Shown here: piece after piece, positions 21,393 to 27,405 of the stretch
How the letters are laid out: each line of letters opens with the position of its first letter
How positions within the stretch are numbered: position 1 is the stretch's first letter
NCBI GenBank assembly: GCA_019240755.1
Contig: JAFAXS010000021.1
Location: 1-32,194, forward strand
DNA from: Vulcanimicrobiota bacterium
Lineage (GTDB): Bacteria > Vulcanimicrobiota > Vulcanimicrobiia > Vulcanimicrobiales > Vulcanimicrobiaceae
Direction of reading: 5' to 3'
Length of the DNA stretch: 32,194 nt
Made by a program: the position numbers and the translations under genes
The notes under the pieces: model-generated
What the model was told of the DNA's origin: nothing
The model's database searches: none
Seen by the model: only the letters and a program-made list of their open reading frames with translations

Positions 21393-21425
21393 GCCGCCGG
21401 TCGATCGACCGGCGGCTCTTTTTTT
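21393..21425 (+). terminator. Rho-independent terminator after the 46-residue gene
   Basis: A perfect palindrome with 12-base arms, GCCGCCGGTCGA and its complement (21393-21416), is followed by TCTTTTTTT. It lies 22 bases after the small gene. On the minus strand it follows the stop of the DUF6249-like gene, with a weaker T-run, so it may act in both directions. Confidence 0.9.
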
Positions 21426-22017
21426 ATGGCGACGGAGGCTTCTTGATTTCGGGAATCGGACCGGGTCGCCAACCTCCGTAAGTGGGGCCCGGCGGCACGC
21501 CGGCCTGGCTGGGCGGCGGCTGCGACCCTTCGGCGTCGGCACCGTTGGTCGTGGGACCGAACTGCTGGCGAACGTGTGGCGGACCAAACGTTGCACCGCT
21601 CATCACCGCGCCGATAATCTGCGCGATGCCGACGAACATTGGGATCAATCCGCCGAGCAACCACGGACCATAGACGTATTGCCCATCCCCGCGGTACCCG
21701 ATGAATCCCAAGCCCAAGAGCAGCGCAAATCCGACGAACGCTACTTGGATGCCCCGGCGCAGCTGCTGCTGCGCGTACATATCCGTGCCCCACCAGTGTT
21801 GATTCGGCATTGGTCCGGGCGGCTGCGATCCGGGCGTCCAGCCATACTTCATCGCCTTACGCATCTCGCGAGCATTCGGCGGCGGTACTATGCCGTGGCG
21901 CAGCATCTCCATTCGTTCTTGGTGCGCCAGCACGCGCGAGACGATCCAGGCGGCGACCGGCGCGCCGAAGATAAAGAATATCGCAAAGAGGGGAATGAGG
22001 TCGCTAGAGTCAGTCAC
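21424..22017 (-). CDS. DUF6249-like membrane protein
   Basis: A 197-residue protein with an N-terminal hydrophobic helix (LIPLFAIFFIFGAPVAAWIV, residues 7-26) followed by SRVLAHQERMEMLRHGIVPPP, a pattern I associate with DUF6249-type proteins. Two further hydrophobic stretches follow around residues 93-107 and 117-140, then a Pro/Gly-rich tail of about 50 residues. GTG 22017 overlaps the stop of the DUF4097 gene as GTGA, so the two are coupled. Such proteins occur next to ECF sigma and DUF4097 genes, but their function is not known to me. Confidence 0.6.
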   Translation of the reverse strand: MTDSSDLIPLFAIFFIFGAPVAAWIVSRVLAHQERMEMLRHGIVPPPNAREMRKAMKYGWTPGSQPPGPMPNQHWWGTDMYAQQQLRRGIQVAFVGFALLLGLGFIGYRGDGQYVYGPWLLGGLIPMFVGIAQIIGAVMSGATFGPPHVRQQFGPTTNGADAEGSQPPPSQAGVPPGPTYGGWRPGPIPEIKKPPSP

Positions 22018-22937
22018 TGTAAAGAAGCTCCGTTCGTAAAGATATGAATCGATCCGTCGGCCGTGCCGACGGTCAGTTTGCCGGCGCCCGTGCCGAGCTG
22101 TATGGTGCGCTGTGAGGCATCTGCGCGATCTGAAGAGCCGTCCACGACGATTCGGCCGTCGGCGGTCGACGCGGAAACTGTCACGTTCGCGCCGGGCAGC
22201 AGGTCGAGTCTGATCGAGCCCTCATCCGTACGCAAGGTTGCGTCGGGGCGCTCGCCGCGAAGGCTCAAGCCATTCGCTTCGATTCGGCCGTCGTGCGTCG
22301 TCGCTAGGAGCGAACCTACCGCAACGTCTTGCAGCGAGAGGTGGCCGTCCATCGACGTCATCGCCAGCCGATCGCCGCGCACGTCGCGCGCCTCCACGTA
22401 ACCGTCGTCGCTCCGGGCATCGACGTTACCATCGAGGCGAGCGAGCGACACGTGACCGTCTTGTGAGCGAACGCTCACGCCGCCCACGATGCCGGTGACG
22501 TCCGCGCCCGAGCACCGCACGATCTCCACGTGCGCGCCTTGCGGAACGTTGACCTCGATCGCTTGCGTGCTAAATCCAAAGAGATCGATCTGAATTCGCG
22601 GCGGGTCCGGCCGTTCGATCCGCACGCCGTCCGCGGTGCGCGTCACGCGCAGCTGCGAGTAGCGCGCGCTAGAGAAAATCGCGCCGCGCATTTGCGTAAG
22701 ATCCGCAACGTGCACCAACCCGTCGTCGGACTCACCGACGCGAACGCGGGAACGCGGATCGTCGATAACGACGGCCGGCGTCACGCCCGCGGCTAAGGGC
22801 GCTATCGTCGTCGCCCTGAACTCGACGGGATGCAGGCCGGCCGCAAACGTCGTGCGTCCGCCGAGCGACCAGATCGCAAGGCTGACGACGGCGAGCTCCG
22901 CGGCGACGAGCATCGTAACGATGGAAGCGCGAGACAT
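22014..22937 (-). CDS. Membrane-anchored DUF4097-like beta-helix protein
   Basis: A 307-residue protein with an N-terminal membrane anchor (about residues 6-26) and a long repetitive extracytoplasmic part. Between about residues 145 and 240 it shows a regular repeat in which D-G is followed by a hydrophobic strand: QDGHVSL, DDGYVEA, MDGHLSL, HDGRIEA and DEGSIRL, spaced roughly 20 residues apart. This is the right-handed beta-solenoid pattern of DUF4097 (putative adhesin) proteins. ATG 22937 lies one base after the stop of a 44-codon ORF; ATG 22961 is an in-frame alternative. It sits in the operon divergent from the ECF sigma gene. Confidence 0.75.
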   Translation of the reverse strand: MSRASIVTMLVAAELAVVSLAIWSLGGRTTFAAGLHPVEFRATTIAPLAAGVTPAVVIDDPRSRVRVGESDDGLVHVADLTQMRGAIFSSARYSQLRVTRTADGVRIERPDPPRIQIDLFGFSTQAIEVNVPQGAHVEIVRCSGADVTGIVGGVSVRSQDGHVSLARLDGNVDARSDDGYVEARDVRGDRLAMTSMDGHLSLQDVAVGSLLATTHDGRIEANGLSLRGERPDATLRTDEGSIRLDLLPGANVTVSASTADGRIVVDGSSDRADASQRTIQLGTGAGKLTVGTADGSIHIFTNGASLQ

Positions 22938-22938
22938 C

Positions 22939-23073
22939 TTAGAGCTTGGGTCCCCATCCATCGAAGGTAGGGCGCAACGATTGCGCGGAGTTCCACCGGT
23001 CCGTCGGCAAGGTCGGCCGAACGTTTCCGGGCCGAACGCCGCCGGGAAGGGTCGTGTTGAGCTTATCTGTCAT
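22939..23073 (-). CDS. 44-residue small protein upstream of the DUF4097 gene
   Basis: A short ORF from ATG 23073 to TAA 22939, preceded by GGAGG (23090-23086) at a rather long spacing of 12 bases. The product begins MTDKLNTTLPGGVRPGNVRP and ends FDGWGPKL; it is hydrophilic, proline- and arginine-rich, with no membrane segment. Its stop lies one base before the DUF4097 start (TAAGATG), which suggests coupled translation. It begins about 30 bases after the predicted leftward ECF promoter. I recognise no family. It could be a real micro-protein or a leader peptide. Confidence is moderate because the gene is short. Confidence 0.5.
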   Translation of the reverse strand: MTDKLNTTLPGGVRPGNVRPTLPTDRWNSAQSLRPTFDGWGPKL

Positions 23074-23108
23074 TGCTGGGTCGGTCCTCCGTGTCATTTC
23101 CTGCACTA

Positions 23109-23135
23109 GTTACGCCCCGTTGCCCGCGTTGTTTC
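23109..23135 (-). promoter_or_regulatory. Putative ECF promoter, leftward operon
   Basis: On the minus strand GAAAC (23135-23131) is followed after 16 bases by CGTAAC (23114-23109). The AAC-type -35 and CGT-type -10 resemble promoters of many RpoE-like ECF sigma factors. The predicted start near 23103 fits the ORF at 23073. Inferred from pattern only. Confidence 0.4.
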
Positions 23136-23165
23136 GCCGCGAAAAGAGGGGGGTGCGACGAAACA
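23130..23165. repeat. Imperfect inverted repeat between divergent operons
   Basis: TGTTTCGCCGC (23130-23140) and GCGACGAAACA (23155-23165) are complementary over 11 bases with one mismatch, separated by 14 purine-rich bases. Each arm holds the GAAAC element of one of the two divergent putative ECF promoters. Confidence 0.7.
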
Positions 23166-23187
23166 TCGCGCGCGCGTGGAGCGTAGG
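23160..23187 (+). promoter_or_regulatory. Putative ECF promoter of the sigma-factor operon
   Basis: GAAAC (23160-23164) is followed after 17 bases by CGTAGG (23182-23187). ECF sigma factors usually drive their own operon, and the same element faces the other way in the divergent promoter. A start near 23193 would exclude the GTG at 23176 as the sigma start and fits ATG 23263. Inferred from pattern only. Confidence 0.4.
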
Positions 23188-23262
23188 AATGGCGTGTCGG
23201 CCACTATGGTCCTTCGACTCCCCCTGGCTGCGGAGCGGCCTCGCCCAAGACCGGCGCCTCGG

Positions 23263-23811
23263 ATGACGACGGCTCCCGAAGACGACGGCGCCCTGGTGGC
23301 TAGGGCGCTGCGGGGGAATCCGGACGCCTTTGCGACGCTCGTCGAACGATACGACCGGGCAGTCTACCACTTGGCCTACCGAACGTTACAGGACTCCGAA
23401 GAGGCGCGCGACGCGACGCAAGAGGCATTCTTCAAGGCCTTTCGGAGCCTGCGAACCTTTAAGATCGGCTCGAAGTTCTCGACATGGATATTTGCGATCA
23501 CCTATCACGCCTGCTGCGACCGGCTCAACCGGCGCAAACGTTACGCGGGCAGCGAGCTGCCGGAACGCGCCGATCCCTCCCCAGGGCCGGAAGACCAAGC
23601 GATCGCGCTCGACGATGCCCGGCGGCTGCGCGCCGCAGTGGACGCGTTGCCGGAAAAATATCGCACCGTGATCACGCTCTTTCATCTTCAGGGTAAGCAG
23701 TACGAAGAAATAGCCGAGGTGCTAGGCTTACCGCTAGGAACGGTGAAGACGCACTTGTTTCGCGCGAAGGAACAGTTGCGCAAGCTCCTCGGCGAAATGG
23801 AGGTCAGCTAA
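23263..23811 (+). CDS. ECF RNA polymerase sigma factor (RpoE-like)
   Basis: A 182-residue group IV sigma factor. Region 2 covers LVERYDRAVYHLAYRTL, EEARDATQEAFFKAF and GSKFSTWIFAITYHACCDRL, which bind core polymerase and the -10 element. Region 4 (LPEKYRTVITLFHLQGKQYE, then EIAEVLGLPLGTVKTHLFRA) is the helix-turn-helix that reads the -35 element. The short linker lacks region 3, as usual. I chose ATG 23263; the frame is open to 23176, but that start overlaps the predicted promoter. A small membrane protein follows after three bases, then a two-component pair, all apparently in one operon. Confidence 0.92.
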   Translation: MTTAPEDDGALVARALRGNPDAFATLVERYDRAVYHLAYRTLQDSEEARDATQEAFFKAFRSLRTFKIGSKFSTWIFAITYHACCDRLNRRKRYAGSELPERADPSPGPEDQAIALDDARRLRAAVDALPEKYRTVITLFHLQGKQYEEIAEVLGLPLGTVKTHLFRAKEQLRKLLGEMEVS

Positions 23812-23814
23812 CTC

Positions 23815-24198
23815 ATGTACTCAGACGCCTACGACCCGCTCGACGAGGCGATTGCAGGACTCCCGCTGGAGGAGCCGCCCGCGGGGCTTCGTGCCTCCAT
23901 TTTGCTTGCAACGGCGTATCGGCCGGCACCGCTCTTTTCGCTCGGCGAGTACGTCGCCATGGGCGCGATCGCCGCTATCGCGCTCTGGCTGATCGCCTTG
24001 GTGGTCATGGGAGGCGCAACGCTGTTCGTTCACACGATCGAAACGATCGCCGGAACGTCGGCGCGGACGCTGTCAAACGGTGCGACGCTCGCATGGCTTG
24101 CCGCGGGCGGCGCAACGGCTCTGTGGATCTCACTTTTCACAGGATTTCAACCCGCCGCCGTCCTGCCAAAGAGGTCGCAACCGCCACCGCGCCGGTAA
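23815..24198 (+). CDS. Small membrane protein, putative anti-sigma factor
   Basis: A 127-residue protein with a cytoplasmic-like N-terminus (LDEAIAGLPLEEPPAGLRASILLATA) and two hydrophobic helices at about residues 43-70 and 88-106. Its place three bases after an ECF sigma gene is where the cognate anti-sigma factor normally sits, and the E-P-P-x-G-L-R motif is common in proteins of this setting. It lacks the H-x3-C-x2-C zinc motif of ZAS-type anti-sigma factors and is short for an anti-sigma domain. The role is therefore inferred from context. Confidence 0.55.
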   Translation: MYSDAYDPLDEAIAGLPLEEPPAGLRASILLATAYRPAPLFSLGEYVAMGAIAAIALWLIALVVMGGATLFVHTIETIAGTSARTLSNGATLAWLAAGGATALWISLFTGFQPAAVLPKRSQPPPRR

Positions 24199-24207
24199 TC
24201 ACCGGGC

Positions 24208-24900
24208 ATGGAGAAACGTACCACCGGCGAGCAACGCCCCCATCGGATCCTCGTCATCGAGGACGACGCGGCGATCAGCCGAGTCCTTCAATTAGAGCTC
24301 GAGCACGAGCGCTACGACGTTGACGTCGCGCGCGACGGACTCTCGGGCCTCGAGAAGGCGCTCAAAGAACCCGACCTCGTGATTCTCGACCTTATGCTGC
24401 CGCGCATGGACGGCATCGAGGTCTGCAAGCGGATTCGCGCCAAGAGCAAGGTTCCTATCATCATGCTCACCGCACGCGATCGCGTTCCCGATCGCGTCAC
24501 GGGACTCGACGTTGGCGCCGACGACTACGTCACCAAGCCGTTTGCCACCGAAGAGCTCCTGGCCCGCGTCCGCGCGCGGCTGCGGGAACGCGCGCCGCAG
24601 GGCAACGTCATCCAATATCGCGACGTGGTGATGGACCGCGATCGCCACGAGGTATACCGCGGTGACAAGTCGATCGCGCTCACCGCTAAGGAATATGCCT
24701 TGCTCGAATACCTGCTCTTGCATCGCAACAAAGTACACACCCGCGACGAGCTGTTCAACGGCGTCTGGGGCAGCGATTTTCTCGGCGATTCGAACCTGAT
24801 CGACGTTTACATCCGCTACCTGCGCGGAAAGATCGACGACGGTTTCGACGACAAGCTGATCACGACGGTCCGGGGAGTCGGCTACACGATCAAAGACTGA
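24208..24900 (+). CDS. OmpR-family two-component response regulator
   Basis: A 230-residue regulator. The receiver domain has the acidic pair E18/D19-D20 (VIEDD), the phosphoacceptor D61 (VILDLMLPRMDG), T88 and K110 (DDYVTKPF). The C-terminal winged-helix DNA-binding domain includes LTAKEYALLEYLLLHRNKVH and DVYIRYLRGKID, ending with TVRGVGYTIKD, typical of the OmpR/PhoB subfamily. It follows the putative anti-sigma gene by nine bases and precedes its kinase by 13 bases, so it is probably transcribed with the sigma factor. Confidence 0.95.
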   Translation: MEKRTTGEQRPHRILVIEDDAAISRVLQLELEHERYDVDVARDGLSGLEKALKEPDLVILDLMLPRMDGIEVCKRIRAKSKVPIIMLTARDRVPDRVTGLDVGADDYVTKPFATEELLARVRARLRERAPQGNVIQYRDVVMDRDRHEVYRGDKSIALTAKEYALLEYLLLHRNKVHTRDELFNGVWGSDFLGDSNLIDVYIRYLRGKIDDGFDDKLITTVRGVGYTIKD

Positions 24901-24913
24901 CGCCTGCGCCCTT

Positions 24914-26359
24914 ATGTCGCTGAAGTGGCGGATCGCGATCGGATACTCGCTACTGCTCATCATCGCGATGACGGCGATGAGCGGAATCATCGTCTGGCGT
25001 TTTCAGCAGATTCTCTACGATCAGGCCGTGACCAGCGTGAACGCGACGATGCGCGCGATCGTGCAGTTTGCCGAACAGTCGACCACGCCGTTCTCGCTGG
25101 AAGATTCCTCACTCGGAGCGCCGCAGTTTCTCTTCAATAGCAGCAATCTCGCAACGTGGAACTCGTCCAATAGTTTCGTTCAGGTCGATTCCCGCGAGGG
25201 CTATCCGTTGGCGAAGACGGCCAATTTGGGTGCGACGCGCATCCCGCCCAACCCGAAGCTGTCGGCCGCGCGCGACGTCGCGTTTCGGAATCTGAGCTTG
25301 GGCAACCGGCCATTCCTGGTGGAAGACCGGTACTTGCAGGAGGGCTCCAATGCCGCGATCATCCATGTCGCCGAGCCGCTCGACGCGCTGCAGCGCACTT
25401 TTGCACGCGCACGCGAAGCCATCGGCATCGTCCTCGCCGCGGCAGTCGTGGCCGTCGTCATCTTCTCGATCGTCCTGGCGTCGCAAGCGACGACGCCGAT
25501 CAACGAGCTCTCGCGCGAGATGCGCGAGGTCAGTTCTGATCGATTAGCACTCTCCGCCGGCGCGGGGAGTCTTGACGGCAGCCCCTGGCGCCGCCGCGGC
25601 GACGAAGTCGGAAGGCTCGCGCAAAGCTTTAGCGATCTGTTGGGGCGCCTGGGCGAGGCCTTCGCCCGCGAACGGCAGTTCATTTCGGATGCCTCGCACG
25701 AGCTCAAGACGCCGTTGACGTCGATCAATGCCAACGCGCAGATGCTCTTGCGCTGGGGGGATCGCGACCCCGCAATCCGCACCGAGAGCCTCGAGACGAT
25801 CGCGCGCGAGAGCGCCGATCTCGCGGCGATGGTCAACGGCATGCTGACGCTCGCCAAGGCCGATCGCGGCGACGACATTCCGAAAGAGCCGCTGTCGCTG
25901 GCGCAGATCGTGTACGAGGTGACGCAGAACGCGACCGTGCGCGTCGGCGAGAAAGGCCTGACGATACGCTTCACCCATCAGGGCACGCCGACCGTGTACG
26001 GCGATGCCCACCTGCTGCGCCAGCTCGTTGGAAACTTGATCGACAACGCGATCAAGTTCAGCGAGCACGGCGAGATCGGCGTGGCGGTCGGGCACGACGC
26101 CCGCTCCGCCTGGATCGAGGTCACCGACACGGGCCCCGGAATCGCCGAAGAGGAGCAGCCGCACGTCTTCGAGCGCTTCTATAGGGCCGACAAGGCGCGG
26201 TCGCGCGCGGTGCCGGGCACCGGGCTCGGACTGGCGATCGTCCGCTCGATAGCGCGGGTCCACGGGGGCGAGGCAACGGTCCGCCGCGCGGCGAACGGCG
26301 GGGCCCTTTTTCGCGTTTCCGTGCCCCTCATGAAGATGCCGTTCACCCACCTTTCATGA
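24914..26359 (+). CDS. Membrane sensor histidine kinase
   Basis: A 481-residue kinase with two transmembrane helices (about residues 8-29 and 169-190) bounding an extracytoplasmic domain of about 140 residues rich in Ser, Asn and Phe. A HAMP-like linker (TTPINELSREMREVS) follows, then the HisKA motif SDASHELKTPLTS with H262, the N box NLIDNAIKFS (374-383), the G1 box DTGPGI (405-410), the F box HVFERFYRADK and the G2 box GTGLGLAIV. All catalytic boxes are intact. It should phosphorylate the regulator encoded just upstream. Its TGA overlaps the start of the secreted DUF4097-like gene by four bases, suggesting that protein is functionally tied to sensing. Confidence 0.95.
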   Translation: MSLKWRIAIGYSLLLIIAMTAMSGIIVWRFQQILYDQAVTSVNATMRAIVQFAEQSTTPFSLEDSSLGAPQFLFNSSNLATWNSSNSFVQVDSREGYPLAKTANLGATRIPPNPKLSAARDVAFRNLSLGNRPFLVEDRYLQEGSNAAIIHVAEPLDALQRTFARAREAIGIVLAAAVVAVVIFSIVLASQATTPINELSREMREVSSDRLALSAGAGSLDGSPWRRRGDEVGRLAQSFSDLLGRLGEAFARERQFISDASHELKTPLTSINANAQMLLRWGDRDPAIRTESLETIARESADLAAMVNGMLTLAKADRGDDIPKEPLSLAQIVYEVTQNATVRVGEKGLTIRFTHQGTPTVYGDAHLLRQLVGNLIDNAIKFSEHGEIGVAVGHDARSAWIEVTDTGPGIAEEEQPHVFERFYRADKARSRAVPGTGLGLAIVRSIARVHGGEATVRRAANGGALFRVSVPLMKMPFTHLS

Positions 26360-27405
26360 TGCCGGCGCGACCTTCCCGATACAATCGAGTCGTGCACATA
26401 GGCTTCGGGCGCGGGACGGCTGCAACGCTCCTCGCCTCGCTCGTCCTGCTCCTCGCGGCCCCCGTCGGCGCCGACGACGCTTTTGACGTTGGCCCGTCGC
26501 CGGTCCTCAACGTGCACTTGAGCCGCGGTACCCTCGATATTCAGACGTGGGACCGTCCCCAAGTCCAGATCACTTCCGACACGCCCCTCGACATCCAACA
26601 CGTGAGCGCGGCGCAGGTGGACCCGAACATCCCGCGCCAGTTGCAAGTATCCTCGCAGCAAGTCGAGACGGCGCACGGCCCCGTGACCTTGCCGGCAGAG
26701 TCGTTCGTATTGCCCGAGCTGCCGAGCGGCGCGCACGACGCGATCGTCGCGCGCGGCGCCGGTCACGTCACGATCACGATTCCGCGCAACACCGCGATGG
26801 TGCTCGCGCATGTGCGCGCCGGCCATCTCGGCATCAACGGCTATCACGGCATCTTCGTGGCGCACGGCCGTTCCGCCGGAATCAGCCTCGACAACGTCGG
26901 CGGTACGGGCTTCGTCGAATCGTTGCGCGGACGAGTGGTCGCGACGAACTCCACGTTCGATCGTCTGCGGATTCGCACCGCCACCGGAAACATGCTCTTC
27001 CAAGGATGCACGTCGCATCAAATTCAGGCGACCAGCTCCTATGGGTCGATCGTGTACGATAACGGCCACTTTCAACCCGGATTGGCGCGCTTCGAATCGG
27101 AGCACGGCAACGTCGCGCTCGGTGTGCGCGGCGGCGCGCAAATCGGCGCGCACAGCGGTTCGGGCAAGGTGATCTCCAGCTTTCATCGCGAGGCGAACGT
27201 ACGCGGAAATCCTGCGACGAAACAGGCGACGGTGGACGGCGGCGGACCCGTCGTGACTGCGACCTCGCATCACGGCTCCGTCTATCTTTACAGCGGCTCG
27301 ATGAACGAGCATCCGCACGTGCGACAGCAGCTCAGCGGCAACTCACGGCTTCCGATCCGCTACGTGGGCCCACCTCCGCGCCCGCGCCGGCAGCCGCCGA
27401 TCTAA
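26356..27405 (+). CDS. Secreted DUF4097-like beta-solenoid protein
   Basis: A 349-residue protein with an N-terminal signal peptide (hydrophobic core ATLLASLVLLLAAPVGA, residues 22-38). The mature part starts with VLNVHLSRGTLDIQTWDRPQ, the usual opening of DUF4097-type domains, and then shows short strand repeats with S/T/G-rich turns (RAGHLGINGYHG, GRSAGISLDNVG, ATGNMLFQG, SYGSIVYDNG, EHGNVALGV, HHGSVYLYSG). The tail is proline-arginine rich. It resembles the DUF4097 gene at 22014 and is coupled to the histidine kinase by an ATGA overlap. ATG 26356 is used; GTG 26392 would also give a signal peptide. Confidence 0.7.
   Translation: MMPARPSRYNRVVHIGFGRGTAATLLASLVLLLAAPVGADDAFDVGPSPVLNVHLSRGTLDIQTWDRPQVQITSDTPLDIQHVSAAQVDPNIPRQLQVSSQQVETAHGPVTLPAESFVLPELPSGAHDAIVARGAGHVTITIPRNTAMVLAHVRAGHLGINGYHGIFVAHGRSAGISLDNVGGTGFVESLRGRVVATNSTFDRLRIRTATGNMLFQGCTSHQIQATSSYGSIVYDNGHFQPGLARFESEHGNVALGVRGGAQIGAHSGSGKVISSFHREANVRGNPATKQATVDGGGPVVTATSHHGSVYLYSGSMNEHPHVRQQLSGNSRLPIRYVGPPPRPRRQPPI

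Follow-up and report, generated by a model that had tools for sequence, protein, structure and literature searches.

The window, the 32,194-nucleotide stretch of contig JAFAXS010000021.1 analysed here (assembly GCA_019240755.1, a Vulcanimicrobiota bacterium), carries between positions 21,393 and 27,405 two divergent groups of genes around an extracytoplasmic function (ECF) sigma factor. On the forward strand these encode the sigma factor itself (SIG, 182 amino acids; 23263..23811), a small membrane protein that is a putative anti-sigma factor (ASF; 23815..24198), an OmpR/PhoB-type response regulator (RR; 24208..24900), a histidine kinase (HK; 24914..26359) with an extracytoplasmic domain followed by HAMP, HisKA (invariant His262) and HATPase domains, and a predicted exported DUF4097-like, or toastrack, protein made up of a signal peptide and a beta-solenoid (D97s; 26356..27405). 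The gaps between successive genes are 3 (SIG-ASF), 9 (ASF-RR) and 13 nucleotides (RR-HK), and HK and D97s overlap by 4. The reverse strand encodes a 44-amino-acid protein (22939..23073), a membrane-anchored DUF4097 protein (D97m; 22014..22937) and a DUF6249 membrane protein (21424..22017; 39.4 bits against a domain cut-off of 33). A preliminary description of this DNA had listed all of these genes except the shortest, and the seven lie at the positions and on the strands it gave; its protein families, gaps and overlap also agree with the open reading frame list and the domain searches, in which RR and HK score far beyond the Pfam cut-offs. The genome comprises 2.59 Mb in 174 contigs. It groups with Candidatus Eremiobacterota (Vulcanimicrobiota), and the two best named relatives of RR, 82% and 76% identical, come from metagenome-assembled genomes of that group.

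Eighty neighbourhoods from the order to which the window belongs were tabulated. Order-wide searches with D97s and ASF as queries gave matches in 93 and 91 of 103 genomes, respectively. SIG and ASF are adjacent at every locus (74/74), RR comes next at 70 of these 74, and the complete series SIG-ASF-RR-HK-D97s is present at 60 of the 63 loci with room for it, 56 times as separate genes and 4 times with HK and D97s fused. The DUF6249 gene is always divergent from SIG (67/67), whereas D97m occupies this position at only 45 of the 67 loci. Four-nucleotide overlaps are frequent for SIG-ASF and for HK-D97s throughout the order, and a flanking pyrK-like gene and a gene for a protein of the metallo-beta-lactamase fold are widely conserved too. 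The seven-gene block is not a product of chance, because both its gene order and its 4-nucleotide overlaps recur across the order. The gene-order check suggested in the preliminary description is thus strongly borne out at this taxonomic level.

The block is nevertheless made of two modules that come apart in both directions. Genomes G054 and G001 keep SIG, ASF and the DUF6249 gene, and RR, HK and D97s are absent together; in G048 the sigma set and the RR-HK-D97s set share a contig but are separated by about 1 Mb. In a sister lineage of the same class (f3), the same pyrK-like gene has RR-HK-D97s as its neighbour, and SIG, ASF, DUF6249 and D97m are missing from the locus. A search for ASF in f3 returned no match, and across its 13 genomes SIG has no orthologue-level match, the best hit (108 bits, 40% identity) being confined to one genome. 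The sigma module was either inserted in the ancestor of the order or lost in f3. The expectation that relatives would not have the sigma pair and the two-component pair separated holds inside the order (60/63) and fails in this sister lineage. At one f3 locus (L229, 2980-4423) two further genes, for a SIMPL-type protein and a 2′-5′ RNA ligase-like protein (both named from sequence only), separate the pyrK-like gene from the two-component operon.

Alignment of the genus reveals two conserved blocks between the divergent genes, each of them an ECF-type promoter. One, GAAAC-N17-CGTA, lies at 23160..23185 on the forward strand and faces the SIG operon; the other, GAAAC-N16-CGTA, lies at 23111..23135 on the reverse strand and faces the operon that begins with the 44-amino-acid protein. 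Of 73 intergenic regions, 66 have the pattern GAAAC-N16/17-CGTA facing SIG and 66 have it facing the divergent operon, against 0.33 and 0.43, respectively, in dinucleotide shuffles of the same 73 regions. We take this motif to resemble the SigW-type ECF promoter. It is the sole promoter found for the block, a consensus scan of the region having found none of the sigma-70 type. Since the two ECF promoters lie back to back between the operons, SIG probably drives both, and autoregulation is the simplest reading; the combined circuit proposed in the preliminary description gains support from this arrangement. In neither f3 nor the split genome G048 is there an ECF promoter immediately ahead of RR, so the kinase module would be under such a promoter only where the two modules are joined. 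At one locus (L192), where 309 nucleotides separate the promoters, there are several inserted copies of a CCCTTCGAGACGCGTTCC...GGAACGCTCCTCAGGGTGACA repeat.

SIG scores 122.7 bits against TIGR02937 (cut-off 42.9) and possesses Sigma70 regions 2 and 4 only, the composition of an ECF factor. Its start is probably 23263, and the in-frame upstream starts at 23176 and 23206 are unlikely because the promoter sits at 23160-23185. Between that promoter and the start (approximately 23209-23262) lies a degenerate repeat-like stretch, in relatives CCTTCGACTC...GCTCAGGACAGG (also at L151 and L167) and absent from other congeners, which would account for the spurious upstream starts. The best NCBIfam model for SIG is SigW (137.5 bits, below its cut-off of 209). 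The likeness to the Bacillus SigW regulons extends to what is presumably their GAAAC/CGTA promoter class; the present locus differs in belonging to another phylum, in having no RsiW-like anti-sigma factor and in carrying a two-component system in the operon.

An alignment of 33 ASF members displays a conserved N-terminus around LxxLPLEEPPxxLRxxIL, followed by two transmembrane segments, and the structural model places short helices at residues 8-15 and 25-33 ahead of the first of these. The class I anti-sigma domain is a four-helix unit, on average about 101 amino acids long and often with an Hx3Cx2C zinc motif, while in the class II protein CnrY a pair of helices binds sigma4 and sigma2 (PMC7406223). 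The N-terminus of ASF, at about 42 amino acids, is cysteine-free and has no four-helix domain, which sets it outside class I. In architecture it fits the class II layout, with fewer than 50 residues and two predicted helices before a transmembrane segment; it differs from CnrY in having two transmembrane segments and no sequence similarity that we could find, the likeness being one of layout alone. The anti-sigma genes beside other ECF genes of the same genome include none like ASF, and two encode the cysteine-containing N-termini typical of the zinc type. Weak matches of ASF to a photosystem II protein, IFRD2 and RNA polymerase gamma were judged to be chance.

D97s matches PF13349 with 21.9 bits, just below the cut-off of 22.9, and a sister-lineage homologue passes with 37 bits. 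An AlphaFold model built on a 33-sequence alignment (core pLDDT 95-98) resembles 4qrk (Foldseek E 1.5e-5; Z 11.8, root-mean-square deviation 2.2 Å over 145 residues) and, more closely by Z score, 3lyc (14.4), 3pet and 4opw (13.3), all three within 13.3-14.4. By this model D97s has the toastrack single-stranded beta-helix fold. Matches of the model to pectate-lyase-like and tailspike structures, with Z below about 10, were treated as generic beta-solenoid similarity, and an alignment of D97s to the HK sensor region (0-6 bits) was judged to be noise.

All 33 unfused D97s proteins possess a hydrophobic N-terminal stretch, and in 28 of them an A-x-A motif follows it. In six genomes of one genus (G083-G088) HK and D97s form a single polypeptide of about 780-840 amino acids where complete, in the order kinase, hydrophobic export segment, toastrack. 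An A-x-A-like site is kept at most of the junctions in the fusion loci L180, L181, L187, L190, L200 and L034. Signal peptidase may cleave the fusion, which would then be a polyprotein. Its toastrack should be extracytoplasmic, because the cytoplasmic kinase domain precedes it and the two are joined via one hydrophobic segment. Toastracks have been argued to be mostly intracellular (PMC11237479), and the D97s family looks like an exception. The cultured Vulcanimicrobium alpinum WC8-2, whose genome measures 3.50 Mbp, is gram-negative in wall structure, possessing an outer membrane and lipopolysaccharide (PMC9758169), and the NCBI taxonomy places Vulcanimicrobium in Vulcanimicrobiota. Since WC8-2 has an outer membrane, and the species of the window would be expected to share this envelope, exported D97s would be periplasmic or beyond.

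From the fusion in one genus and the occurrence of RR-HK-D97s without the sigma pair in the sister lineage, D97s can be assigned to the kinase module. The preliminary description had coupled the kinase to a secreted beta-solenoid protein, and the fusion in six genomes, the joint absence in G054 and G001 and the joint relocation in G048 all favour this. It had also taken the two DUF4097 proteins together; that they form one unit is an idea that we dropped: the secreted one tracks the kinase, whereas the membrane one is dispensable and follows the sigma module. That such proteins sense or shape the cell surface, as was also suggested, may be correct.

Beyond the locus, the same promoter motif points to a distant target. 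A motif scan covered three genomes of the genus, with the reversed pattern as control, and one match recurs before the same gene in relatives. This gene (G000:C172:43845; L258) encodes an RND efflux pump (ACR_tran, 711 bits) and is preceded by GAAACA-N16-CGTA. The site lies 52-60 nucleotides before the start in all 13 genomes of the genus with a close homologue. Other genera provide 22 SIG-positive genomes with a placeable start, and every one of them has it. Conservation supports no sites other than the two at the locus and this one at the pump gene. In a sister-lineage genome without SIG (G115), GAAAC-N17-CGTA occurs on the reverse strand just before the start of a membrane DUF4097 homologue (L235, 7560-7585).

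The preliminary description held that an ECF pair and a two-component pair in one operon are uncommon, and this needs correction, since precedent exists in sigE-cseABC of Streptomyces (PMC6767563); ECF39, the group of sigE, and ECF234 are both tied to two-component systems (PMC8999054). The two loci share the order ECF sigma factor, membrane-associated protein, OmpR-type response regulator and sensor kinase. The Streptomyces operon responds to cell-envelope stress, has no anti-sigma factor, encodes a lipoprotein (CseA) as its second product and is apparently absent outside Streptomyces; its promoter requires CseB and does not count among the sigmaE targets (PMC6767563). Here the second gene encodes a cysteine-free protein with two transmembrane segments, which is not a lipoprotein, RR reaches 183.7 bits with the CseB model (NF041733; cut-off 350), a toastrack gene follows the kinase, and the control extends to a divergent operon. 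The conserved promoter (66/73) is of the ECF autoregulatory type and, with SIG as its putative reader, suggests the opposite of the sigE rule.

What the present locus shares with LiaFSR/LiaG and VraTSR is the genetic tie between a DUF4097/DUF2154 toastrack and a two-component system; a toastrack context in which a sigma factor is operonically linked has been mentioned as well (PMC11237479). The present locus differs in its OmpR-type RR, in the sizeable extracytoplasmic domain of HK, and in a toastrack that is predicted to be exported and that one genus encodes as a fusion with the kinase. D97s does not match the LiaG model NF049997, and D97m as a LiaG relative was rejected (30.2 bits, cut-off 285). 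Sigma factor, two-component system and toastrack together were not found described in the open-licence literature. The locus is kin to sigE-cseABC and LiaFSR/LiaG, the closest known systems, and a member of neither.

We interpret the locus as a two-module envelope-stress regulon, with a probability of roughly 0.6. ASF would hold SIG at the membrane through its two N-terminal helices, and envelope stress or damage would release it. Free SIG would then transcribe its own operon, the divergent operon (the 44-amino-acid protein, the optional D97m and DUF6249) and the distant RND pump. In the second module D97s may act as a periplasmic partner or modulator of HK, reporting a second envelope signal. 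Because this module sits in the sigma operon, release of SIG should raise the levels of RR, HK and D97s and so might amplify the kinase pathway. What can be read from sequence in this scheme is the gene order, the promoter motifs, the fusion, the co-loss and the modelled fold. We offer only tentatively a more specific version, in which the exported toastrack is an obligate HK subunit (a polyprotein in one genus), its dose is set by an autoregulated ECF factor under a new minimal anti-sigma family, and the 44-amino-acid protein is a further regulator.

Several results count against the two-module regulon. ASF, searched against Pfam (33 members) and PDB sequences, has no credible match and hence no detectable homology to known anti-sigma families. 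The scan of the window's own genome gave 63 matches against 30 in the control, several of them inside coding sequence, so that many are background. In the 73 intergenic regions 0 to 48 nucleotides, with one outlier of 309, separate the two -35 elements; lengths of 12 (18 loci) and 24 nucleotides (6 loci) are over-represented, and no sequence is conserved within. As the spacer length varies, we claim no fixed response-regulator operator, and any crosstalk of the two modules is hypothetical. The genome also contains about 18 sigma-70-family matches above the cut-off, which leaves room for a different ECF factor as reader of these promoters, and three genomes in which SIG was not found (G044, G075 and G003) still have the pump promoter. 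These last two points favour the view that a different ECF sigma factor is the main reader of the GAAAC/CGTA promoters, with the local SIG as only one of its targets. We consider this unlikely: the promoters flank SIG on both strands, as autoregulation predicts, and among the five SIG-negative genomes with a placed pump start the site is absent from G007 and from the tested f3 genome (G105). For the three that keep it the choice is between assembly gaps and another ECF reader, and G044 and G075 are drafts with SIG-carrying congeners, which makes gaps possible.

The dissociation of the modules (f3, G054, G001, G048) would also be expected of two independent systems answering different signals without crosstalk, the sigma module having landed upstream of an existing two-component operon. 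We hold this to be possible, with the odds against it, as the operon is tight at 60 of 63 loci in dozens of genera and its only promoter found is the ECF one, so that co-expression seems to have been selected. A cascade of the CseABC kind, in which RR activates the sigma operon and the product of the second gene modulates the kinase instead of acting as an anti-sigma factor, has the shared gene order in its favour and is quite improbable: apart from the promoter type (unlike that of sigE; PMC6767563), the second gene and the RR score described above, there is no conserved operator space, and SIG-ASF persist without RR-HK-D97s in G054 and G001. Rather unlikely is the idea that the toastracks are structural or adhesive surface proteins, targets of the regulation rather than sensors. 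The nearest PDB folds are annotated as putative adhesins and D97s has a Pro/Arg-rich tail, but fusion to the HK C-terminus and co-inheritance with HK speak against this idea.

Bacterial signalling by ECF sigma factors and by two-component systems is usually viewed as two distinct branches. Here one operon has both throughout nearly an entire order, in a little-known group of soil bacteria within a barely cultured phylum, and its promoter motifs point to the regulon. The locus makes testable the role of toastracks (DUF4097) for sensor kinases and the side of the membrane on which they lie, the possibility that an ECF factor adjusts the gain of a two-component system, and the job of a conserved 44-amino-acid protein under ECF control.

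This protein, unannotated in the window, is the first product of the divergent operon. Its homologues lie downstream of the left promoter at 32 loci, usually with GGAGG ahead, and end in (R)PTFxGWGP(R/K)(L/I); the window copy has this ribosome-binding site and the C-terminus RPTFDGWGPKL. Over the 12 conserved codons at 27 loci, pairwise differences at codon positions 1, 2 and 3 number 472, 307 and 2029, and this concentration at third positions indicates a translated gene. We would guess that it is a regulator or an assembly factor for the membrane proteins of its operon. The next gene, D97m, matches PF13349 with 37.3 bits (cut-off 22.9) and probably starts at 22937 instead of the listed 22961, because the 44-amino-acid gene ends just before it. 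No literature on DUF6249 in this context was found. A consensus scan gave five terminator-like sites where 5.4 are expected; the sole 10-bp stem among them is a stem-loop at 21393..21416, just past the DUF6249 gene, which is the probable end of the divergent operon.

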